Assembly (NCBI RefSeq): GCF_011039205.1
Contig: NZ_JAAKEL010000002.1
Location: 310,001-374,000 of the forward strand
Source of the DNA: Dysgonomonas sp. ZJ279
Lineage (GTDB): Bacteria > Bacteroidota > Bacteroidia > Bacteroidales > Dysgonomonadaceae
Reading direction: 5' to 3'
DNA: 64,000 nt
Shown here: one piece after another, positions 1-37,937 of the stretch
Numbering within the stretch: position 1 is the first letter of the stretch
How the letters are laid out: each line of letters starts with the position of its first letter
Program-made: the position numbers and the translations under genes
The notes under the pieces: model-generated
Seen by the model: the letters and a program-made list of their open reading frames with translations, nothing else
Told to the model about the DNA's origin: nothing
The model's database searches: none

Positions 1-100
1 TAAATATTCACCAAAAGTATTCATCTTGTCTTATTCGTTTGGACTAATTTGACAAAGATACAATTAATTTCGATTTTGCTATCCGAACGTTGAGGGAAAT

Positions 101-433
101 TCAAGTTCTTATGTTTTCTCTTTTAGTAAAAACGATAACCCCAACTACATAGCCACCAACAATAATTGCTCCATCGGCTTTTTTTAAATCTTTCTCGTTT
201 TTTCGCTCAGTAATAAGATTATAGTTGGGGGCTGGGTTTAATGTGTAACCCAAAATATTCACGAATAGTTCAAGTAAAAATCCCTCTTGAAACTGCTCTT
301 CATTGCTTTCAAGAATATTTTCTTGTATTGCCGTATTGTCAAAATAGGCAGCAAATAGCTTGTATGCAGCTTTGATTTTATCGCCTTGAGAAGTAATGTG
401 TTTTTTCGTGATAATGTTTTGAAACAGGCTCAT
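101..433 (-). pseudogene. N-terminal remnant of Eco57I-type restriction-modification enzyme
   Basis: This 110-residue frame resembles the extreme N-terminus of large Bacteroidetes type IIG (Eco57I-like) restriction-methylase proteins of about 1000 residues. The pattern runs through an AYxxFxAYF segment, NEEQFQEGFL, LGYTLNPAPNYNL and KKADGAI. Family similarity ends near residue 97, after GGYVVGVI, where homologues continue with an ELKGT-type stretch; here ten unrelated residues and a stop follow. Neither the methylase NPPY motif nor an endonuclease motif is present, so it cannot be active. It may be a gene cut by the element's insertion or by a deletion. The family match is from memory of the family and is moderately sure. 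Confidence 0.6.
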
Positions 434-547
434 ATGTTGGCTCTTAACAGATCTGTTAACAAAAGTAATAAAAACCTGTAGAATAATCTCGTAACAATCA
501 GATGATTTACAATATTTTCCAATCGAGATATTACGCCATCACTCTGC

Positions 548-1759
548 CTATCTTTTCCTGCCCTTTATTGGTTGTTGCTTAAGCGGGACAATTCTCCTGA
601 CGGAGTGTTCAAGCTTTTGGGCAAGATTTTTGAACCACTCGGCGATCGATATTCCGTTGATAGTGATGCGAAAGCGGTTTTTCCTTTCGGGGTCAGACTC
701 GATACGTGCGGAAACATCATCTGCTTTAAAACTTCGTTTGTGCTCCTCGGAGTAGAGTTCGCCTATGAATTGGACAGTCTTTCCCTGTGTCATTTCTCTT
801 GTTTGATCTTTAGAAAACCCGACTGAAATACACTCTTTCGACACCCGAATGGTCTCTTCCAGACTCGGAAATAGCTCGCAAGCCAGTTCATAATCGGTGC
901 GAACAGCGTTAGGGTCGAGGTCGTTTTTCACCTTTCTAAGTTGCGATTCCACTGCCAGAATCTCCGCTTTTTTGTGCTCCAAATAGCTGTCCATAGCAAG
1001 AAATTTCTCTCGTGCTTCGTCCTTTCGGTCGTACAAATCCCACGTTTTCTCTCGCACTTCTTCCTGTTCTTGCTTCAGGCACTCCACTTTTTCAGCAATG
1101 GAGTCTTTCTGTGTGAATAGCTCACGGTAATACTCTTGCGTTGTAGTGTGGCGAGCTTCTGAGCCGTCAATGCCACGTTGCAAGCCGTATTTCTGCATCG
1201 CAAGGGCGTAAGTATCCTGATACTCTTTGAGCTTGACACGTGTCATCACGTCGTCGGCGCATAGGCGGGCGGTATCGGTTGATTTTGTGCGATATTTCTT
1301 CTTACCCAACTGCTTTTCCGCACTGGCTTTTCTTCTTTCGCCAACGACAATTGGCACGAGTGTAGCGTGGATATGGGGTGTAGTTTCGTCCAAATGGAGC
1401 ACTGCCGAGACGATGTTTTCCTTGCCAAAAGTGTCGCCCAGCCACTTCATATTATCCTTGCACCACTCTTCCAACCTCCCTTCCGATTGGATAAACAGCA
1501 TATCTTCGGGGCTACCAGAGAGGTTGATATGTATCGCCCGCACCTGATTCTTGCCGATTTTGCGTTTCAGCCCTGCCGTCTCCAAACGGTGCTGGATCGC
1601 CTGTGTGCGGTTCATGCCCTCGGGTCTTTCAACAAGCTCTTTATTGAGGTGCAGGCGAGCGGGGTCGGCATTTGGTGGCACGATTGTCCGCTCGATGTGT
1701 GCCGAGGTAGCAGAATCTGTGCCGTGTGCTTTTTGGAGGTGGAGTACAACGAAACCCAT
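548..1759 (-). CDS. MobV/Pre-family relaxase (mobilization protein)
   Basis: This 403-residue protein has the Mob_Pre relaxase architecture. Residues about 1-200 form the relaxase domain: it opens with GFVVLHLQKAHG, has a SAHIERTIVPPNADP stretch near residue 19, and carries the metal-binding histidine motif HLDETTPHIHATLVP near residue 123. A charged, probably coiled-coil segment follows (about 215-290), then a basic C-terminus. Such proteins nick oriT and pilot the strand into a recipient through a secretion system supplied in trans. The upstream intergenic region (1760-1981) has strong dyads and is the natural place for oriT. Family assignment is confident; the exact Bacteroides Mob name is not. 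Confidence 0.88.
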   Translation of the reverse strand: MGFVVLHLQKAHGTDSATSAHIERTIVPPNADPARLHLNKELVERPEGMNRTQAIQHRLETAGLKRKIGKNQVRAIHINLSGSPEDMLFIQSEGRLEEWCKDNMKWLGDTFGKENIVSAVLHLDETTPHIHATLVPIVVGERRKASAEKQLGKKKYRTKSTDTARLCADDVMTRVKLKEYQDTYALAMQKYGLQRGIDGSEARHTTTQEYYRELFTQKDSIAEKVECLKQEQEEVREKTWDLYDRKDEAREKFLAMDSYLEHKKAEILAVESQLRKVKNDLDPNAVRTDYELACELFPSLEETIRVSKECISVGFSKDQTREMTQGKTVQFIGELYSEEHKRSFKADDVSARIESDPERKNRFRITINGISIAEWFKNLAQKLEHSVRRIVPLKQQPIKGRKR

Positions 1760-1786
1760 TGTCTTTAAATTTTAAGTTCTTAATGT

Positions 1787-1880
1787 CGCCTCAGCGACTG
1801 GGGTGTTCAGAGGGGCATGCCCCTTTGGCTCAGTGGGTATTTTTAGTGGAGTGCAACGAAGCGTTAAAAAAATACCCTAA
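1787..1880. promoter_or_regulatory. Candidate oriT / dyad region upstream of mobV
   Basis: Two inverted repeats lie between the relaxase start and the DUF3408 gene: a perfect 14-base palindrome at 1811-1824 (AGGGGCATGCCCCT), and a 10-bp repeat pairing GGGTATTTTT at 1835-1844 with AAAAATACCC at 1868-1877. Relaxase oriT sites often lie directly upstream of the mob gene and contain such dyads. No known nick-site consensus was recognised, so the oriT assignment is inference; the second dyad could equally be a terminator. Confidence 0.3.
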
Positions 1881-1981
1881 TAAGTTATGGTATTTCTGTC
1901 GAAATATCCGTTGGTCGCAGCCTGCCTGCCGTTTGGGTATCCACACCTTGAATAATCGGAACATTGAAAACGGTAGCAAGC

Positions 1982-2317
1982 TTAAAAGCTACTGGTGGGT
2001 TCCGATTCATTTTCCACATCGGGGGCATCGTCTTCGTATTCCTCTTGCTGCACTTCAGATTGCCACCATTCTTTAAACTCTTTCTCATCTTTTTGAGAAA
2101 GTTCTATAATCAACTCCTTGTACTGTTCGATGTGGTGCAGCAGGATAGCATCAACAAGCGACATAACGGTCACGTAGTCGTCTCGGAAAAGAAGGGCGAT
2201 GTGTCTGATTTTTCGGTGCGTCTCAGCATTTACATAAAGCACCTTACGGTCTCGGATTCGTTTCTCGGAGCAAAAGCGTTTAGCATATTCCTCCCGTGTA
2301 ATCTTTTTTGGTTTCAT
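1982..2317 (-). CDS. DUF3408 family conjugative-element protein
   Basis: This 111-residue protein resembles the DUF3408 proteins that accompany mobilization and conjugation genes in Bacteroidetes elements. It has a basic N-terminus (KPKKITREEYAKRF), a central helical part with YVNAETHRKIRHIA and LVDAILLHHIEQYKELI near residues 28-70, and an acidic tail from about residue 85. The central pattern resembles a ribbon-helix-helix-like DNA-binding fold, which would fit a relaxosome accessory role next to mobV. It is encoded 222 bases upstream of mobV on the same strand, with the candidate oriT in between. The specific function is not known. Confidence 0.7.
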   Translation of the reverse strand: MKPKKITREEYAKRFCSEKRIRDRKVLYVNAETHRKIRHIALLFRDDYVTVMSLVDAILLHHIEQYKELIIELSQKDEKEFKEWWQSEVQQEEYEDDAPDVENESEPTSSF

Positions 2318-2944
2318 AATTGAATTTCTATTTGATTGATTATTCTAAATCTTTGCCGTTTTCATATTCTATTTCAACCTTGAAAACTGCCGATTCAATA
2401 TGCAAATAAAAGTCTATTATTCTACATATCAACACACTGCGATTCGTTTGCGGTGCTCTGCTTTATCTTTCATCTTTGGAGTAAAAGGAACTATGATTTC
2501 AGGTGTGATTTTAGTATGGATTTCAGTTCTGATTTAAAAACTGAAACTTATAAAAAGGTAAATTTTTATATCGGTATTGATTTAAAAATTGAAGAGTTGG
2601 AAAGTTTAAAATCTTCACTATTATTTTCTAAAAGCCAATTTTTAGAATTTGGTAATTTTCAAACTTGAAAGCTTGTAAACAAGGTTACATCATTCCGACA
2701 ATTTTTAATGAAAAACTGAGGGGGATTTTGCGAATTGCTAAAACCGCACAAGATTTTGTCTTTCAAACCCCAGACAATCGCAGCCACAAGCTACCACCAC
2801 TTGATTACTTGCTCTTTAGCTGATTTTTTGTGTCTATATTTACATAATATTGGATGCGCATCGGCAATTTAAAGTAAACTTTATTGCTCTCGGCTTTCAC
2901 AATATTTGAGACAGAAATAATATTAACCGCAAAAAATATGTGAT
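2318..2944. other. Gene-free stretch inside the mobile element
   Basis: About 630 AT-rich bases lie between the DUF3408 gene (minus) and the first HTH gene (plus). A 71-codon frame at 2453-2668 has low-complexity composition, no recognisable domain and internal near-repeats such as GATTTCAG/GATTTTAG; I do not accept it as a gene. The divergent genes on either side must have promoters here, but I see no strong TAnnTTTG element; AATATTTG just upstream of the HTH gene is one base off. Confidence 0.4.
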
Positions 2945-3217
2945 ATGGAAATCGTAAATGTAGAAGCCCGAACATGGGAAGCGATGATGGCGAGGTTCGA
3001 AGCCTTTGCACAAAGAGTCGCAACCCTGTGCGAGGTGCAGGATAAGAGCCTGCAAAAATGGCTCGACAATCAGGAGGTGTGCCAGATTCTGAACATCAGC
3101 AAGAGAACTTTACAAACTTATCGGGACAACGGCACGCTGGCATACACCCAAATCAACCACAAGATTTATTATAAGCCCCAAGAAGTGAAGCAGTTCATTA
3201 ATAAACTTAAAAAATAG
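2945..3217 (+). CDS. Helix-turn-helix protein, excisionase-like
   Basis: This 90-residue protein has a MerR/excisionase-type HTH (HTH_17-like) in its C-terminal half: LDNQEVCQILNISKRTLQTY near residue 41, followed by RDNGTLAYTQINHKIYY, the recognition-helix-plus-wing pattern in which the wing reads the DNA. The N-terminal 35 residues are helical and amphipathic. Small proteins of this type in Bacteroides elements act as recombination directionality factors or transcription regulators of excision and transfer. It is encoded 5 bases upstream of a second, related HTH gene, so the two are surely co-transcribed. Confidence 0.75.
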   Translation: MEIVNVEARTWEAMMARFEAFAQRVATLCEVQDKSLQKWLDNQEVCQILNISKRTLQTYRDNGTLAYTQINHKIYYKPQEVKQFINKLKK

Positions 3218-3222
3218 AAGCC

Positions 3223-3516
3223 ATGAGCGAAATCATTACCAAAGACAATGAGAGGGTTAAGCGATTTTTTCACTCACTCGACCTAATGTTAGACAAAGTA
3301 GAGGTATTTACAGCATCCTATTGCCCGACCCTGAAAGGCGAGCGGTTTTTGACGGATGCCGAAGTGTCAGAGCGGCTCAAAGTGAGTCGTCGGACATTAC
3401 AAGATTATAGGACAACAGGCAAAATCCCCTATTTTCAGTTAGGAGGTAAAGTGTTGTATCAGGAATCCGATATACAAAAATTACTGGACACCAACTATAA
3501 TAAGGCTTTAGAATAG
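3223..3516 (+). CDS. Helix-turn-helix protein, excisionase-like (second copy)
   Basis: This 97-residue protein is a paralogue of the preceding one. LTDAEVSERLKVSRRTLQDY near residue 43 forms the HTH and RTTGKIPYFQLGGKVLY the wing. The N-terminal third again is helical with an aromatic stretch (FFHSLDLMLDKV). Paired HTH_17 proteins of this size are common in Bacteroidetes mobilizable and conjugative transposons (the Xis2c/Xis2d type of arrangement). It is the last gene of its short operon: a strong terminator follows 48 bases after the stop codon. A role in excision control is inferred from family and context. Confidence 0.75.
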   Translation: MSEIITKDNERVKRFFHSLDLMLDKVEVFTASYCPTLKGERFLTDAEVSERLKVSRRTLQDYRTTGKIPYFQLGGKVLYQESDIQKLLDTNYNKALE

Positions 3517-3564
3517 TTATGCGGATTTAGAGGCGAGGGAGTTGAGTTGCCAATTGACGCAAAT

Positions 3565-3608
3565 AAAAACCGAGCACACCAAAATTAATTGGTGTGCTCG
3601 GTTTTTTG
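3565..3608 (+). terminator. Rho-independent terminator after the HTH pair
   Basis: A perfect 16-bp stem pairs AAAAACCGAGCACACC (3565-3580) with GGTGTGCTCGGTTTTT (3591-3606) across a 10-base AT-rich loop. A run of T follows on the plus strand and a run of A precedes it, so it could work in both directions. Confidence 0.85.
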
Positions 3609-3629
3609 ATGTTATGCGTTCTTTGTCGT

Positions 3630-3813
3630 GTCGGTCGTTTTCGTTGCAGGGGCAGTGTTGAGGCGGGTTTAGGCTGTGCAAGGTTTGTCAAAATAATACT
3701 ACCCGAAGCGTAGTGGAGGCGTGGAGATTATTTTGAAAACCCGCAGGGCTCGACCTTGCTCAGCCGTCTCGAAACCCGAAGCTACCTTTGCCCCGAAAAC
3801 GATAATGACCGAC
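3630..3813. repeat. 184-nt imperfect inverted repeat (large hairpin)
   Basis: The two ends pair: GTCGGTC at 3630-3636 with GACCGAC at 3807-3813. The arms continue inward through ATCGTT/AACGAT-like, GGGGCA/TGCCCC, CGGGTTT/AAACCCG and GCAAGGT/ACCTTGC matches to AAAATAAT (3690-3697) pairing with ATTATTTT (3727-3734). The apical loop is 29 bases and rich in G and A. The right arm is about 19 bases longer, giving bulges. The stretch is markedly GC-richer than its surroundings and has no coding frame. It could be a structured RNA, a recombination or transfer site, or a regulator of the flanking genes. Function unknown. Confidence 0.6.
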
Positions 3814-3819
3814 TCAGCA

Positions 3820-4179
3820 TTAGTTTAAAATTTGCAAATCACTCACTTTCAAAACTATTACTGGGCTGGTGGTATTAGTGGTTGCATTTTTGACTATCCA
3901 TTTCCTAAAAATCTTAGCCTGTGCCGTCTGCACCCGAAACGACACCGCCACGACCATATCCAAACCGTAGTAGTCGGGGTATACCGTCAGTCCATCGACC
4001 GTGCATGTCATTGAGTAGTCGCCATCGGCAACACCCGACTTTTCAATGGCGCGGATAATTCGCTTTGCAGATTGGTAATAAACCCCAAATAGGCTGGCAA
4101 TTTCATTTATGGTCATTCTAACTTCGGACGGAACAGTGACCGACCCGTTATCATTAATTGATATTATCTCTCGTTTCAT
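3820..4179 (-). CDS. Small HTH / RhuM-like protein next to the integrase
   Basis: This 119-residue protein has an HTH-like segment (MTINEIASLFGVYYQSAKRI, residues about 22-41). It is followed by a segment close to the signature of the RhuM/Rha family (YYGLDMVVAVSFRVQTAQAK, then FRKWIV). Full RhuM proteins are about 300 residues; this one stops soon after the motif, so it is a short or truncated member. It is encoded 11 bases downstream of the integrase stop codon on the same strand, so the two are probably one transcript. The function of RhuM proteins is not established; a regulatory role near the integrase is a guess. Confidence 0.6.
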   Translation of the reverse strand: MKREIISINDNGSVTVPSEVRMTINEIASLFGVYYQSAKRIIRAIEKSGVADGDYSMTCTVDGLTVYPDYYGLDMVVAVSFRVQTAQAKIFRKWIVKNATTNTTSPVIVLKVSDLQILN

Positions 4180-4190
4180 AGTTTTAATTA

Positions 4191-5420
4191 TTAGACAATT
4201 ACCATATCCGCAAAACAGTTATCAATCCCTGCCATATCTCGTTTGATGCTCGAATCCATCACTTTAGCATAGTGCTGGGTCATGCGAATATCGGAGTGTC
4301 CGAGCATTTTGGCGACATTTTCCATCGAAACGCCATTCGCCAGACAGACTACCGAGGCGTATGTATAACGGGCTGAATGTGTGGTCAGTGTCTTTTTTAT
4401 GTTACACCTTGTGGCGATCTCTTTCAGGTAGCTATTCATCTTTTGGTTGCTCGTTACGGGTAGTAGTGCACCTGTTTTCTCACGAATAGGGTGATCTTTG
4501 TACTTTTCGAGAATCATCTGAGGAATTTTCAGCAATGGGATATTACACATATTCTCGGTCTTCTCCCGAGCCTTGCGAATCCAGACATCTCCGTTATTGT
4601 CGGTGGTGAGGTGTTCTGCACGGAGGTTGTTCACATCTGTATAAGCCAAGCCAGTGAAAATGCAGAACGTGAAAACGTCCCGAACGTATTCAAGGTGCTC
4701 CATCTCAAAATCCTTTATCATTATTCGTTCAATCTCCTCTTTGGTCAGAATCTCTTTGATGACCTCTTTCGCTTGAAACTTGATGCCAGCAAAAGGGTTA
4801 CGTGTCATCCACTCGTTGGCAATGGCGAGATTGATAATCTTTTTGAAACATTTCATGTATCGTATAACGGTGTTTTGCTGACAGCCTCTGTCAACTTTGA
4901 GGTACATCTCAAAATCACGTACAAATTCCGCATCAATCTCGTTGAGATTGATGTCCTCCTTGCCGAACTTTCGCTGAATTAGCACGCCAAGATATTTACA
5001 ACAGTTATCAAATCGGGTGATGGTGATTTTGACATAGTCGATGCCGATTAGCTTGCGGCAGTCGTCGTTGTGCTTGCGGAATACGCCCAGAAGAGTTCGC
5101 TTGTCATCATCTGCATTATACAGTGCATTCATAATGAGCCGAGCAGTAAATAGTTTTCCGCTCATCTCCAAGTCACGATGGATTGTCAACGCTTTGAGCT
5201 TCATCATACGGATATACTCGTTGAGCTCAGACGCTTTTCGATCTCTACCTTTTGATGATTCCGTTGCTTGATCCCACAGGTTTGGGGATATGCTCCGTTT
5301 GATTTGGGACTCTACGGCAACACCGTTTACTTTGATCCTCAGCCGAATAGGTGCTTCGCCATTGCTGAGTAGTTTAGTTTTCTTGATAAAGAAGAAAACG
5401 CTGAATGAATTTCGTTTCAT
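4191..5420 (-). CDS. Tyrosine-type site-specific integrase
   Basis: This 409-residue recombinase has the three-part Bacteroidetes design: an arm-binding domain (about 1-95), a SAM-like core-binding domain (about 105-205, with ITRFDNCCKYLGVLI) and a catalytic domain (about 215-395). Visible active-site elements are HSARYTYA (His-x-x-Arg), LGHSDIRMTQHYAKV (His plus the nucleophile Tyr) and a basic Lys-containing hairpin. The position of the first catalytic Arg, normally in a TGLR motif, is Ala here (FTGLAYTDV), as in several Bacteroides conjugative-transposon integrases. The gene start faces tRNA-Phe 239 bases away, pointing to that tRNA 3' end as the integration site. Confidence 0.92.
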   Translation of the reverse strand: MKRNSFSVFFFIKKTKLLSNGEAPIRLRIKVNGVAVESQIKRSISPNLWDQATESSKGRDRKASELNEYIRMMKLKALTIHRDLEMSGKLFTARLIMNALYNADDDKRTLLGVFRKHNDDCRKLIGIDYVKITITRFDNCCKYLGVLIQRKFGKEDINLNEIDAEFVRDFEMYLKVDRGCQQNTVIRYMKCFKKIINLAIANEWMTRNPFAGIKFQAKEVIKEILTKEEIERIMIKDFEMEHLEYVRDVFTFCIFTGLAYTDVNNLRAEHLTTDNNGDVWIRKAREKTENMCNIPLLKIPQMILEKYKDHPIREKTGALLPVTSNQKMNSYLKEIATRCNIKKTLTTHSARYTYASVVCLANGVSMENVAKMLGHSDIRMTQHYAKVMDSSIKRDMAGIDNCFADMVIV

Positions 5421-5507
5421 AATCGTAATTTTTGTTGGTGAAATTATGAAATCGAACCGAAAGTATTGCTACGCAAAATGCAGTGTATCAGTGAATAAGA
5501 ACAGTTT

Positions 5508-5545
5508 AGGTGGGACTTTTGCGGCAGGATCAAAAAGTCCCACCT
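5508..5545. repeat. 13-bp perfect inverted repeat between integrase and tRNA
   Basis: AGGTGGGACTTTT (5508-5520) pairs exactly with AAAAGTCCCACCT (5533-5545) across a 12-base spacer. It lies between the integrase start and the tRNA-Phe 3' end, where integrase arm-type sites or an integrase-gene operator would be expected. There is no T-run long enough to make it a convincing terminator for either strand. Confidence 0.5.
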
Positions 5546-5601
5546 ATTTCACTTTTTTAGTTGCCCAAAACCGCTGTTTTTTGCCTATCAGGGGGAATGA
5601 A

Positions 5602-5634
5602 AAATCCCTGAATCTCATTGAAATTCAGGGATTT
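5602..5634 (-). terminator. Terminator downstream of tRNA-Phe
   Basis: A 12-bp perfect stem (AAATCCCTGAAT at 5602-5613 with ATTCAGGGATTT at 5623-5634) has a 9-base loop. Read on the minus strand it follows the tRNA by about 25 bases and ends in a short T-run, so it probably terminates the tRNA-Phe transcript. If the element inserted at the tRNA end, this hairpin may be supplied by the element. Confidence 0.65.
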
Positions 5635-5658
5635 ACGCAAATTTGCTTCTTGTTAAAG

Positions 5659-5731
5659 TGGTGCCACCAGGAATCGAACCGGGGACACAAGGATTTTCAG
5701 TCCTTTGCTCTACCAACTGAGCTATGGCACC
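5659..5731 (-). tRNA. tRNA-Phe (GAA)
   Basis: This 73-nt cloverleaf on the minus strand begins GGTGCCATAGCTCAG. The acceptor stem GGTGCCA pairs with TGGCACC, the anticodon loop reads CTGAAAA (anticodon GAA), and the T-arm is CCCGG-TTCGATT-CCTGG. The discriminator base is A and CCA is not encoded. It lies 70 bases downstream of thiL on the same strand. The 3' end abuts the mobile element and is the presumed attachment site. Confidence 0.95.
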
Positions 5732-25942: not shown

Positions 25943-26632
25943 TCATTCAATTACCTTATCTATTACTTTCTTAGCTATCACTTCCATTACTTCATATCCT
26001 CGTATTGTAGGATGTACACCATCCGAACCGTAACCTTCTATCATAGCCCCATTAGCATCACGCATCTCTATGTTATAATCTATATAATCGAAACCATTAG
26101 CTTCGGCATATGCCTTAATATTAGCATTCAGTGCATCTATTGTTTGAGGTACATTTTTAATCTCGGTTCTCCATGGGTATTCTCCTACAGGAAGAACAGA
26201 CGATAAAATTACTTTTATACCATTAGCTTTAGCAATTTCAGCCATTGACTTAATATTGTCGAAAGTATATACAGGATTATATTTACCTGTATTTTCAGCT
26301 ATATCGTTTGTTCCTATGTTAATAATAACTGCTGTAGGCTGAAGATCTACTACATCCTGACGAAAACGAAGCAATAATTGAGGACTAGTCTGTCCACCGA
26401 TCCCTCTTCCTATATAGTTATTAGCGGTAAAGAAATCAGGTCGCATATTTACCCAACCTTCAGTAATAGAATTACCTATAAACACAACTCTTTTCTCACC
26501 CTGTTGAGGCGAAGCTAATTCACTGTTAGCCTTGGCATATTTATCAAAATTAGGTGCTTCACTAAGACTTTGGGCATTAAGATAGATATTCATAGCAAAT
26601 AAGAAAGACAAAATAAATACTGATTTTTTCAT
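25943..26632 (-). CDS. Exported SGNH/GDSL-family hydrolase
   Basis: The chosen ATG at 26632 gives 229 residues starting KKSVFILSFLFAMNIYLNAQ, a Sec signal peptide; the longer frame adds ten residues with no such signal. All four SGNH blocks are seen: FIGNSITEGW (Ser) near residue 51, GRGIGGQTSPQ (Gly), NIGTNDIAENTG (Asn) and DGVHPTIRGYEVM (Asp/His). The family includes esterases of sugars, phospholipids and acetylated glycans; a periplasmic or surface acyl-sugar esterase is the likeliest role. It lies at the left edge of the gene-free candidate origin and is transcribed away from it. Confidence 0.9.
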   Translation of the reverse strand: MKKSVFILSFLFAMNIYLNAQSLSEAPNFDKYAKANSELASPQQGEKRVVFIGNSITEGWVNMRPDFFTANNYIGRGIGGQTSPQLLLRFRQDVVDLQPTAVIINIGTNDIAENTGKYNPVYTFDNIKSMAEIAKANGIKVILSSVLPVGEYPWRTEIKNVPQTIDALNANIKAYAEANGFDYIDYNIEMRDANGAMIEGYGSDGVHPTIRGYEVMEVIAKKVIDKVIE

Positions 26633-26662
26633 GTGTATTGAATTTAAATATTTGATAATCAA

Positions 26663-27340
26663 CAGCTATATAGTTTACATATAACCACTTTTATAAGAGA
26701 GAATAAAAATAACACTTTTCTATTTGAATTTTATGACAAAGTGAATTAATTCTGAAACTTAAATCTGATTTCAAATCAATGTTATTAAAACATATATATA
26801 ATAAGGTTTTTATTTAATTCCTTTTCAAAAAAATCATACTTGTATTTATAGGCTGTTAATTGTGTTTATCCTTTTTTTGTATATTACTTGTATATATCGT
26901 TCTTAAATGTCTGTTTACATACAAATCTTAGTTATTAACAATGATAAAAGCAGCCAATTTATTTATATAAAGGAGATTGTGAACTTTATTAAAATACTGT
27001 TAATAACTATTTTTGTTAATAACTATTTTTTGTAATTATTCACTATTGATGTTAATAACCCTTTCAAATACGAATGATAAATAGCTGTGATTTTTTAGTT
27101 ATCATCTGCGACTAATTTCATATATGTTCTTTAGTTTGGAAAAGCAATGGTTATTGTTTGAAAAATATATCAACACTTATTAACAGGTTATCAACACTGT
27201 TTTGTTGATTGTGAAAAGTAGAGTTTAAAGGGGCTTATAACCTAAAGATACAAACTTTATCAGCTATTTTGTAAAAAACTGTTATATATAGGTAACCAAT
27301 GTGATTATGTACTCTATTAAATAGCATATTGTTAGATAAA
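26663..27340. other. Candidate chromosomal replication origin (oriC)
   Basis: This AT-rich gene-free gap lies between divergent genes. The 9-mer TTATTAACA occurs exactly at 26932-26940 and 27177-27185 (plus) and 26998-27006, 27014-27022 and 27050-27058 (minus); TTATCAACA is at 27188-27196, and near-matches occur at 27167-27175 and 27203-27211. These resemble DnaA boxes (TTATNCACA) with A for C at position six. In small line counts the plus strand tends to C over G on the left and G over C on the right. Two parS sites and mnmG lie about 9 kb away. Origin function is inferred. Confidence 0.6.
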
Positions 27341-27344
27341 TATA

Positions 27345-27352
27345 TATTTTTG
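27345..27352 (+). promoter_or_regulatory. Candidate -7 promoter element of sppA (TATTTTTG)
   Basis: TATTTTTG fits TAnnTTTG and lies 24 bases before the ATG at 27377. It lies inside the frame that an upstream ATG at 27329 would use, supporting the later start. Confidence 0.55.
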
Positions 27353-27376
27353 TTAAATATAATTGAAAATCGAATT

Positions 27377-29131
27377 ATGAAAGGATTTTTTAAAAATGTG
27401 TTAGCATCTATGTTGGGATGCTTTGTAGTCTTAGGACTTTTCTTTTTTATGCTTTTTGCAGGACTTGCTGCTATGATACTCAGTTCGGATCAGCAGTATA
27501 ATTTGAAAGATAATACAGTCTTAACTATTAGACTTGAGGGAACTTTATCCGATAGATCGAATCCGAATCCTCTTTATGAGTTGTTTGGTATAAGTCAAAA
27601 CGATCAGATGGGACTTGATGATATTCTTTCGTCTATTAAAAAAGCAAAGGAGAACGATAAAATTAAAGGTATTTATATCAATGCCGGAGCTTTTGCAGCA
27701 TCGGGTGCTTCGCTTAAGGAAATAAGAGATCAGTTGGTCGATTATAAAGAAAGCGGAAAATTCCTAGTTGCTTATGCTGATGTGTATACACAAGGTTGTT
27801 ACTATCTATCTACAGCAGCCGATAAAGTAATCCTCAATCCTCAGGGAAATCTGGATTTACATGGTTATTCTTCTTCACCTATGTTCTACAAAGGACTATT
27901 GGAAAAATTAGGTATAGAAATGCAGATTTTCAAAGTAGGTACTTTCAAATCGGCAGTAGAACCGTTTATTCTTGACAAGATGAGTGATGCTAACAGAGAA
28001 CAAGTATCTTCTTTTATGGGTGATTCATGGTCGACCATTCTTTCTGAAATATCCGTATCAAGAAATATATCGGTAGATAAATTGAATATTCTTACTGATT
28101 CGATGCCATTATTTCGCGATCCTGTGGTTAATGTACAAGATCGTTTGATAGATACTTTAATGTATGAAACTGAGGCAAGACAATATATTCAAACACTTGC
28201 CGGTGTAGAAAAGAAAGAAGATTTACGATTGGCTTCTGTTAAGAATATGTCGTCTGTATCGTTTCTTAAGAAAGATAAATCGGATGATATAATTGCTGTA
28301 TTATATGCAGAAGGTACTATCAATGTAGGCACGTCGAGAGATGGTATTACCGATAGAAGATATGTAAGAGAAATAGAAAAATTAAAAGATAACGATAAAG
28401 TAAAAGCCGTTGTTTTACGTGTCAACTCTCCGGGAGGTAGTGCTTACGCATCGGAACAAATATGGAAAGCTATTACCGATCTTAAAGCAAAGAAACCGGT
28501 AGTAGTTTCTATGGGAGATCTTGCTGCATCGGGCGGATACTATATCTCTTGTAATGCTTCTAAAATTATAGCTCAACCAAATACATTAACAGGGTCGATA
28601 GGTATATTCGGTATGTTTCCGAATGCAGAAGGGCTGACAAAGAAAGTAGGTCTTACATTTGATAATGTGAAAACAAATAAATTCTCGGATTTTGGTGATA
28701 TCACTCGCCCAATGAGAGACGATGAAAAGGTAATGCTTCAAAATTTCGTAGAAAAAGGGTATGATTTATTTCTTACTCGTTGTTCTGAAGGTCGTGGTAT
28801 TCCGAAAGATTCTTTAGATAATATAGCTCAGGGGCGTGTATGGACAGGAAATCAAGCTCTTAAAATTGGACTTGTGGATGCTCTTGGTGGAATAGATGTT
28901 GCTATAAAAGAAGCTGCAAAATTGGCTGAATTAGAAGATTATGCGCTGTCAGGTTTCCCTGTAAAAGTAGATTTCTTTGAGGCTTTATTTTCCGATCAGA
29001 AAGAAGAAATGACCACTCGTGCCATGAAGGAATATTTAGGTGTCGATTACGAGCTATTTAAACTAATGAAAGAAATTAAAGAACAGGATTTTATACAAGC
29101 CCGTTTACCTTACGACTTTCAAATAAAATAA
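27377..29131 (+). CDS. sppA: Signal peptide peptidase SppA, 67K type
   Basis: From the ATG at 27377 (MKGFFKNVLASMLGC) this is a 584-residue SppA with an N-terminal membrane anchor (about 8-35) and two tandem S49 domains. The catalytic Lys is expected in the first domain at IFKVGTFKSAVEPF and the nucleophile Ser in the second at MGDLAASGGYYISC. The length is that of the long E. coli-like form in which both halves fold together. The enzyme degrades cleaved signal peptides in the inner membrane. The sppA stop is 7 bases before lpxK, so sppA-lpxK-punA form an operon transcribed away from the candidate origin. Confidence 0.95.
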   Translation: MKGFFKNVLASMLGCFVVLGLFFFMLFAGLAAMILSSDQQYNLKDNTVLTIRLEGTLSDRSNPNPLYELFGISQNDQMGLDDILSSIKKAKENDKIKGIYINAGAFAASGASLKEIRDQLVDYKESGKFLVAYADVYTQGCYYLSTAADKVILNPQGNLDLHGYSSSPMFYKGLLEKLGIEMQIFKVGTFKSAVEPFILDKMSDANREQVSSFMGDSWSTILSEISVSRNISVDKLNILTDSMPLFRDPVVNVQDRLIDTLMYETEARQYIQTLAGVEKKEDLRLASVKNMSSVSFLKKDKSDDIIAVLYAEGTINVGTSRDGITDRRYVREIEKLKDNDKVKAVVLRVNSPGGSAYASEQIWKAITDLKAKKPVVVSMGDLAASGGYYISCNASKIIAQPNTLTGSIGIFGMFPNAEGLTKKVGLTFDNVKTNKFSDFGDITRPMRDDEKVMLQNFVEKGYDLFLTRCSEGRGIPKDSLDNIAQGRVWTGNQALKIGLVDALGGIDVAIKEAAKLAELEDYALSGFPVKVDFFEALFSDQKEEMTTRAMKEYLGVDYELFKLMKEIKEQDFIQARLPYDFQIK

Positions 29132-35963: not shown

Positions 35964-35979
35964 TGTTCCACGTGAAACA
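35964..35979. promoter_or_regulatory. parS-type ParB binding site 1
   Basis: TGTTCCACGTGAAACA matches the bacterial parS consensus TGTTNCACGTGAAACA at all 16 positions. It lies 17 bases upstream of the apt start, in the apt-mnmG gap. No parAB genes are in the window. Confidence 0.88.
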
Positions 35980-36040: not shown

Positions 36041-36056
36041 TGTTTCACGTGGAACA
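36041..36056. promoter_or_regulatory. parS-type ParB binding site 2
   Basis: TGTTTCACGTGGAACA is the exact reverse complement of site 1, again a full parS match. It is directly preceded by a half-site TGTTTCACG (36031-36039) and lies 6 bases beyond the mnmG stop codon. Confidence 0.88.
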
Positions 36057-36062
36057 TTTATT

Positions 36063-37937
36063 TTATCGCCCTAAAAGAATAAGTAAAATAGAGATATCAT
36101 TTGGCGAAACTCCGGGTATTCTGCTTGCTTGTGCAATAGTTTCCGGATCTATATTTTTGAGCTTTTGTCTAGCCTCCGTAGATAAAGATAATATGTTTTC
36201 GTAATTTAATTTGCCTTTTATTTTTATGTTTTCAAGGCGGCTTATCTTATCTGCTATTATTTGCTCTCTCTTTATATAACCGTCATACTTTATAATAATC
36301 TCCGTAGCTTCTATTATCTCTTCTTTTCTATTCGGAATTTTATCAAGCTCTTCTTTGAAAGCCGGCACATATTCTGCTATATTGTTAATGGATATTTGTG
36401 GTCTTGTTATTACATCTTTTAGTTTAAGCCCATGTTTGAGAGGGGAGGTTCCTAATGCAATTAAGCCTTCATTTATATATCCGGGTTTCAAAGAATAGTT
36501 AGTAGCAAATTCTACAAGTCTGTTTATCTCTCCTTTTTTCTCTTTGAGCAGATCCATACGTTCTCTTTTTGCCAGACCTATATTGTAGGCTTTCTCAGTT
36601 AGGCGTGCATCTGCATCATCTTGCCTAAGTAGTATTCTATATTCAGCCCTAGAGGTAAACATACGATATGGTTCATCAACTCCTTTTGTAACAAGATCGT
36701 CAATTAATACACCTATATAAGCTTCGTCTCTTTGTAATGTATACTCGTTTCCACCGTGTGTGTTGATGTGTGCATTTATACCTGCGATTAGTCCTTGCCC
36801 TCCGGCTTCCTCATATCCTGTAGTTCCATTTATTTGTCCTGCGAAAAATAGATTTTTTACAAGCTTAGTTTCCAATGTATGTTTCAATTGTCTTGGATCG
36901 AAGAAATCATATTCGATTGCATACCCTGGTCTATATATGTGTATGTTTCTAAATGCAGGTACTTTTTGCAGAGCTTCGATTTGTATGTGGAGTGGGAGAG
37001 AGGATGAAAACCCATTTAAATAATATTCTTGAGTGTTTTCACCTTCTGGTTCCAGAAACAATTGGTGTGCTGTTTTTTCGGCAAAAGTTACAATCTTAGT
37101 TTCTATACTAGGGCAGTATCTTGGTCCGATACTTTTTATCTGTCCGTTATATAAAGGAGACTCATCTAAACCATTGCGTAATTCTGCATGCGTTTCTTCA
37201 TTAGTGTAGGTAATCCAGCAACTTAATTGTTTTAATGTGCGGGGAGCAAAATCAAGATAAGAGAACTTATGAAAATCTTCTTCTCCTTTTTGTTCTTCCA
37301 TTAAACTAAAATCGACGCTTCTACCGTCTATTCTGGCAGGTGTTCCGGTTTTCATTCTGTCGGTGGTAAAGCCTAATTCTTTCAGTTGTTCTGTGATACC
37401 GAATGATGCTGGTTCGGAAACCCGACCGCCTCCAAGTTGTACACTACCTATATGTATCAATCCATTCAGGAATGTCCCATTCGTGAGAACGACCGATTTG
37501 GCCGTGAAAGTAACTCCCATTGCAGTCTTTACTCCTTTTACTTCATTGTCTTCTATGACTAACGAATTCACCGTGTCTTGCCAGATAAATAGGTTATCCG
37601 TATTTTCAACTATTTCCCTCCATTTCAGTATGAATTGTGCACGGTCGCTTTGTGCTCGTGGACTCCACATGGCTGGTCCTTTCGATCGGTTAAGCATTCT
37701 GAATTGGATAGCTGTCTTATCGGTAACTATCCCCATTTGACCTCCAATAGCATCTATTTCTCTTACTATTTGTCCTTTGGCAATTCCACCGACTGCCGGA
37801 TTGCAACTCATTTGTGCAATCTTATTCATATCCATAGTTATAAGGAGAGTTCTTGATCCCATGTTGGCGGCGGCTGTTGCTGCCTCACATCCGGCATGAC
37901 CTGCTCCAACTACAATAACATCGTATTTAAAGTTCAT
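36063..37937 (-). CDS. mnmG: tRNA 5-carboxymethylaminomethyl-uridine synthase subunit MnmG (GidA)
   Basis: With MnmE this FAD enzyme installs the cmnm5 group on the wobble uridine of several tRNAs. The 624-residue length is typical. Visible are the N-terminal dinucleotide-binding motif VVGAGHAGCEAATAAANMGS, MSCNPAVGGIAKGQIVREID near residue 43, TGTPARIDGRSVDFS near residue 198, FFAGQINGTTGYEEAGGQGL near residue 362 and the C-terminal helical MnmE-contact domain ending ASRIPGVSPNDISILLILLG. In many bacteria this gene lies next to oriC; here the candidate origin is about 9 kb away. Confidence 0.97.
   Translation of the reverse strand: MNFKYDVIVVGAGHAGCEAATAAANMGSRTLLITMDMNKIAQMSCNPAVGGIAKGQIVREIDAIGGQMGIVTDKTAIQFRMLNRSKGPAMWSPRAQSDRAQFILKWREIVENTDNLFIWQDTVNSLVIEDNEVKGVKTAMGVTFTAKSVVLTNGTFLNGLIHIGSVQLGGGRVSEPASFGITEQLKELGFTTDRMKTGTPARIDGRSVDFSLMEEQKGEEDFHKFSYLDFAPRTLKQLSCWITYTNEETHAELRNGLDESPLYNGQIKSIGPRYCPSIETKIVTFAEKTAHQLFLEPEGENTQEYYLNGFSSSLPLHIQIEALQKVPAFRNIHIYRPGYAIEYDFFDPRQLKHTLETKLVKNLFFAGQINGTTGYEEAGGQGLIAGINAHINTHGGNEYTLQRDEAYIGVLIDDLVTKGVDEPYRMFTSRAEYRILLRQDDADARLTEKAYNIGLAKRERMDLLKEKKGEINRLVEFATNYSLKPGYINEGLIALGTSPLKHGLKLKDVITRPQISINNIAEYVPAFKEELDKIPNRKEEIIEATEIIIKYDGYIKREQIIADKISRLENIKIKGKLNYENILSLSTEARQKLKNIDPETIAQASRIPGVSPNDISILLILLGR

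Follow-up and report, generated by a model that had tools for sequence, protein, structure and literature searches.

A conserved cluster of DnaA-type boxes at a GC-skew switch, proposed as the chromosomal oriC of a Dysgonomonas-type bacterium

DnaA boxes of the Mollicutes have been printed as TTWTC(C/A)ACA, and those of Acholeplasma laidlawii as TTWT(C/T)(C/A)ACA (PMC3322544). For the origin of the linear chromosome of Cyanothece 51142, gel shifts and footprints showed binding of the purified domain IV of DnaA (PMC4674748). Within Bacteroidota, the oriC of Prevotella intermedia OMA14 was predicted with E. coli boxes, one mismatch being allowed. Origins in this phylum seem little studied, and the described example is such a prediction (PMC4755523).

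The window analysed here is a stretch of 64,000 nucleotides (G000:C23:310001-374000) on a 387-kb contig, taken from a draft genome of 58 contigs and 4.10 Mb. Its sppA is closest, among named isolates, to that of Dysgonomonas (D. mossii, 75%), a group that is gut- and termite-associated. The gap upstream of this gene holds a cluster of DnaA-type boxes that is nearly unique in the genome, conserved in register among relatives and placed at the GC-skew switch. The preliminary description took it for a candidate origin. Because of the box cluster and its density, the skew minimum of the contig, the conservation of the element in register and the origins fitted in two complete relatives, we consider it very probable that this Dysgonomonas-type bacterium has its chromosomal oriC in the gap.

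The gap and its place on the chromosome

The features of the locus, in window coordinates, are as follows.
26663-27376, no strand: gene-free, AT-rich gap of 714 bp (22% GC), proposed oriC (sequence and GC count)
26827-26873, plus: left conserved block, ATAGGCTGTTAATT-TGTTTATTCTTTTT type (alignment of nine loci; also present in a second genus)
26932-26940, plus: box 1, TTATTAACA (exact match; final letters degraded in many relatives)
26998-27006, minus: box 2, TTATTAACA (A at position 6 in 25/25 loci)
27014-27022, minus: box 3, TTATTAACA, 16 bp from box 2 (A at position 6 in 25/25 loci)
27050-27058, minus: box 4, TTATTAACA (A at position 6 in 23 of 24 scored)
27086-27196, plus: right conserved block with TGCGACTTATTTCATATATG-type core and boxes 5 and 6, source of model R1 (alignment)
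27177-27185, plus: box 5, TTATTAACA (A at position 6 in 25/25)
27188-27196, plus: box 6, TTATCAACA, 11 bp from box 5 (position 6: A 19, G 4, C 2; n=25)
25943-26662, minus: left neighbour, GDSL-type lipase/acylhydrolase (Pfam PF13472)
27377-29131, plus: right neighbour sppA, SppA-type S49 peptidase (Pfam PF01343; ATG at 27377)
35964-35979, no strand: parS-like site TGTTCCACGTGAAACA (exact match; one of only two on the contig)
36041-36056, no strand: parS-like site TGTTTCACGTGGAACA (exact match; the other of only two on the contig)
36063-37937: mnmG

The preliminary description had placed six sites in an AT-rich, gene-free gap between diverging genes, with parS sites and mnmG nearby. All six were confirmed, spread over 265 bp, and its account of the surroundings was borne out by the measured GC content, by the lipase gene on the minus and sppA on the plus strand, and by the two exact parS-like sites beside mnmG. 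Despite the low GC content of the gap, the window contains 60-mers less stable as duplexes than the least stable ones of the gap, and the duplex stability analysis singled out no unwinding element there. The left conserved block might have a role in unwinding or offer weak DnaA sites, which is a guess. Elsewhere in the window, positions 1-5731 have a GC content of 0.40-0.44 against about 0.35; this stretch ends near a tRNA-Phe gene (5658-5731) and is perhaps an integrated element.

The cumulative GC skew of the 387-kb contig descends from about 45 kb to 336501 (window position 26501), 162 bp short of the left edge of the gap, and stays flat over the gap. On this contig the minimum therefore falls where the preliminary description had expected it if its reading was right. 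Within the window alone the cumulative skew was lowest at 25-27 kb, with a second low near 37-39 kb. Raw GC skew ran opposite to the trend in the first 45 kb and the last 17 kb of the contig, and the T-A skew had its minimum at 252106, away from the gap, which counts against this location. Third-position skew was taken from open frames of at least 100 codons, chosen greedily and not equivalent to gene predictions, with the strands kept separate, which reduces the effect of gene direction. Left of the gap (50-337 kb, three stretches) it was -0.05 to -0.12 on both gene strands; to the right it was +0.20 and +0.06 on the two strands, over only 50 kb to the contig end. The skew evidence had been graded as weak in the preliminary description, a grade we would raise, since the GC-skew minimum of the contig and the change in third-position skew both support the gap.

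Third-position skew was fitted in two complete relatives by a model in which coding and replication each had a term and two breakpoints were left free. In G028, which belongs to the same genus and is outside the training set of R1 (60 stretches, 966 open frames), the fitted origin at 2519862 was 1.4 kb from the element at 2518418; the raw cumulative skew of this genome has a broad minimum. In G039, which belongs to a second genus and was covered by 20 stretches with 310 frames, the fit was best at grid point 1646024 and nearly as good at 1651361 (worse by 0.5); the element at 1652478 is thus 1-6.5 kb from the fitted origin. The grid point nearest the element (1653593) fitted worse by 16.3 units, which counts against the assignment. 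The grid was finer near the elements because sampling was denser there, while the choice of breakpoints was still free round the circle. The parS-like pair is 9 kb from the gap here and 32 kb from the element in G028, and parS-like sites were absent from the sampled stretches of G039.

Boxes of this kind are concentrated in the gap. TTATYAACA occurs 24 times on the 387-kb contig, six of them inside the gap, and no second cluster was found on the contig, with at most one copy per 300-bp stretch outside the gap. Genome-wide, every other 300-bp stretch had at most two copies of TTATTAACA; equal density elsewhere, which the preliminary description had named as grounds for abandoning the origin reading, was not seen. 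No TTATNCACA was found within the gap. Canonical boxes were rejected as a mark of the origin, since TTATYCACA is present 147 times in the genome, with at most two per 300-bp stretch among the matches listed. On another contig (G000:C47:239009-239033), two copies of TTATTAACA on the same strand are spaced 16 bp apart, as are boxes 2 and 3 in the gap.

Arrays of such boxes off skew switches do exist in the family. G053 and G058, complete genomes from two other genera, each carry four tandem A-type boxes with 11-bp spacing (G058:C1:1982890-1982931 and G053:C1:1407886-1407927; L249/L250 and L269/L270). As origins these arrays were rejected because they are off the skew switch, so the presence of such boxes is not by itself the mark of an origin. 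The array of G058 sits between converging open frames, and both arrays are possibly DnaA control sites. The origin of these two genera was not found by skew or, for G053, among the plus-strand sites in the matches listed. Skew resolves an origin only to some kilobases, and the gap could likewise be a DnaA-binding control locus for titration or reactivation, like E. coli datA or DARS, with the true origin a few kilobases away. We regard this as quite improbable. Loci of the datA/DARS type are clusters away from the origin, whereas the gap is at the GC-skew switch; the contig has no second cluster to take the role of origin, and in two genera, with different genes beside it, the element coincides with the fitted switch or is close to it.

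Conservation of the element

The preliminary description had proposed conservation of the gap in related genomes as a check, and at 25 loci the gap is indeed kept in register. An alignment over about 400 bp was obtained for nine loci upstream of sppA, comprising the left block, the boxes and the right block with its TGCGACTTATTTCATATATG-type core. R1, which models the right block from sequence alone and was built from nine training sequences, was scanned against 101 genomes of the family, and 32 of these had a match with E of at most 0.01. Strong matches (E 1.5e-12 or better) were found in 19 of the 25 genomes of the genus, one in each; nine of these were training genomes and ten were not. Two further genomes, G017 and G015, had weak matches, and R1 matches were absent from the remaining four (G019, G023, G024 and G033).

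In a second genus, g3, five of six genomes had a weak R1 match (E 1.8e-5 to 1e-3), located at the box end. The register of the boxes is the same there as in the Dysgonomonas genus, and the left block is retained. Near these five elements sppA was not found; in G039 the neighbours of the element are a tyrosine-phosphatase gene and a gene with no match in Pfam, and ychF lies 2.5 kb further on. Genera g9 and g11 also gave weak matches (E 4e-4 to 0.009), which were not accepted as origins. Among five of these loci checked for box patterns, L153 and L157 had A-type pairs 11 bp apart, so that a few of these matches may be worth attention.

When R1 was run on 80 named loci, the element was found in nine, eight of them training loci and the ninth L004, where it is 0.8 kb from sppA as against 0.1-0.2 kb elsewhere. 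Six further matches were at chance level (E 0.12-0.41). Upstream of sppA, the element was missing from 4 of the 13 Dysgonomonas-group named loci with >1.3 kb (L011, L012, L016 and L017); by eye, what lies upstream in L012 and L016 is largely coding-like. The element and sppA can thus become separated. In L038 a C-type cluster was rejected, being located downstream of sppA in what looks by eye like coding sequence. The 22 Proteiniphilum-type loci among L018-L039 and L046 had other 9-mers strongly conserved upstream of sppA, GTAAGAAAC in 22/22 and AAGAAACAG in 21/22, and no box cluster was found in these 22.

The sites might instead be operators or promoter elements of sppA or of the lipase gene, as sppA adjoins the element in all 20 genus loci examined (the 19 strong ones and G017). 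This is highly improbable: the element persists in the five second-genus loci where sppA was not found, sppA persists in the four Dysgonomonas-group loci without the element, the distance in L004 is that of neither the window nor its other relatives, and a promoter would leave the skew switch unexplained.

Clustering above chance was measured with 5000 dinucleotide-preserving shuffles of the gap. These had on average 0.11 copies of TTATTAACA, with a maximum of 3, against five observed, in line with the estimate of less than one copy in the preliminary description. For TTATYAACA the mean was 0.14 and the maximum again 3, with six observed. The whole window holds nine copies of TTATTAACA against a mean of 2.10 in 100 shuffles. 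That an AT-rich 9-mer, which is not over-represented in the 4.10-Mb genome (90 copies of TTATTAACA, whereas its reversed control has 146), clustered by chance in an AT-rich gap can be dismissed as a negligible prospect, refuted by the shuffles, the nine-locus alignment and the R1 scan, with the register conserved at 25 loci.

For the gap as oriC, the following course of events can be proposed. DnaA, encoded on another contig, would bind the six TTWTNAACA boxes in their fixed register, in which three boxes on one strand are followed by two on the other, 11 bp apart, with a poorer outlying box in addition. The bound DnaA would then form a filament that opens the AT-rich DNA and so allows loading of helicase in both directions. 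Binding of DnaA, melting and initiation at the gap are inferred.

DnaA and the letter at position 6

Boxes were tallied at 25 loci (the 19 strong ones, G017 and five from g3), with six boxes taken at each by register and scored at positions 1-4 and 7-9. The tally was formed by the 142 of 150 possible boxes that scored 6 or 7 of 7. Position 3 was A in 100 and T in 40 of these, and position 5 was C in 71, T in 49, A in 12 and G in 10. Position 6 was A in 134, as the preliminary description had read it, G in five and C, the letter of the canonical TTATNCACA, in three. Four of the five cases of G fall on box 6, all in g3 loci. The resulting consensus is TTWTNAACA.

The preliminary description had further presented the box as a deviation from the usual one. 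This stands in so far as A replaces C at position 6. As a novelty the A-type box was rejected, such boxes having been printed already for Mollicutes (PMC3322544) and in one instance for Cyanothece (PMC4674748). All six boxes of the window fit the Mollicutes-type TTWT(C/T)(C/A)ACA, position 5 being wider among the relatives. The unusual feature is thus the near-fixation of A at position 6 and not A itself. In a literature search of partial coverage, no A-type box described for Bacteroidota was found.

The dnaA gene of this genome is on contig C12, separate from the gap, and its product matches the DnaA equivalog. Within 300 bp upstream of dnaA, TTATCAACA was found at 9 of the 30 family loci with this region (L099, L100, L105, L114, L118, L119, L123, L124 and L127; 10 copies), which would fit autoregulation. 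At the four loci of the genus it was absent from these 300 bp, and the genome of the window has TTATTCACA there.

The recognition helix of DnaA reads the TnCACA half of the box (PMC5742627), and the residue equivalent to Asp433 of E. coli is described as highly conserved and, together with Leu438, as important for position 7 (PMC8235120). Aligned with domain IV of E. coli (1j1v), from which the residue numbers are derived, the DnaA of the window's genome keeps Arg399 and His434; in place of the other two residues of the canonical recognition helix (Asp433, His434 and Thr435 of E. coli) it has Asn at 433 and Ala at 435. Among 31 DnaA proteins of the family (the 30 best-scoring matches and that of the window's genome), residue 433 was Asn in 31/31 and residue 435 was Ala in 27 and Ser in four.

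Outside the family the Asp form prevails. In a pattern search of 61 genomes of the phylum, with motif positions compared by eye to the DnaA match, the Asp form was inside the match in 56 of the 60 other genomes and the Asn form only in the window's genome; G107, G117, G142 and G144 had neither form. Of 149 genomes of the order, 126 matched, 116 with an Asp-type motif and 10 with the Asn type only, three of the latter in the Dysgonomonas family. These were counted by eye and are DnaA-like motif matches in whole genomes, not tied to a located DnaA. Many Asp-type relatives in the order already carry Ala435. Asn-type DnaA-like motifs were also seen in Bacteroidales of other families (G180, G214, G238, G272, G277 and G285), possibly as independent changes. 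G270 was omitted from this list, since the same motif turns up in G187 as an additional match and may belong to another gene. Family f27 has both motif types.

Pairing of asparagine with adenine is a known type of contact. Initiator specificity may conceivably have switched in the Dysgonomonas family, the change of Asp433 to Asn being coupled with the near-fixed A at position 6 and Asn reading the adenine, although we consider this rather unlikely. We advance it tentatively because the link between Asn433 and the A rests on co-occurrence in one family, the printed contact of this residue is with position 7 (PMC8235120) and Ala435 is found in Asp-type relatives; the occurrence of A-type boxes in Mollicutes (PMC3322544) lowers the odds further. 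If the coupling is real, Bacteroidales lineages outside the family that have the Asn motif should also have A-type origins. A changed residue in the reader and a nearly fixed changed letter in its sites would make testable a shift of an essential recognition code, in which all origin sites followed.

Comparison with known origins

An origin with a fixed register at 25 loci would be a basis for replicating plasmids, for growth rates derived from coverage and for studies of the cell cycle. The locus resembles the bacterial oriC of E. coli and B. subtilis in its cluster of 9-bp boxes, its AT-rich gap at a GC-skew minimum, its conservation and the parS-like sites near it. It differs from these in the box, which is TTWTNAACA here and TTATNCACA there (PMC4588119), and in having dnaA on another contig. 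P. intermedia OMA14, also of Bacteroidota, likewise has its predicted origin at a skew transition and far from dnaA, an arrangement that the authors call common in the phylum (PMC4755523). The available text of that paper defines no lineage-specific box; TTATCAACA and TTATCCACA differ at a single position.

One predicted box of the Cyanothece 51142 origin is identical to TTATCAACA. Unlike the cluster described here, that origin has a single A-type box, in a pair whose affinity was, according to the authors, below that of the TTTTCCACA pair (PMC4674748). The boxes of the Mollicutes are alike in permitting A at position 6, and TTATCAACA and TTTTCAACA are among the printed forms. For those bacteria, which belong to another phylum, C and A are both given at this position (PMC3322544), whereas in the loci examined here A is nearly fixed (134/142).
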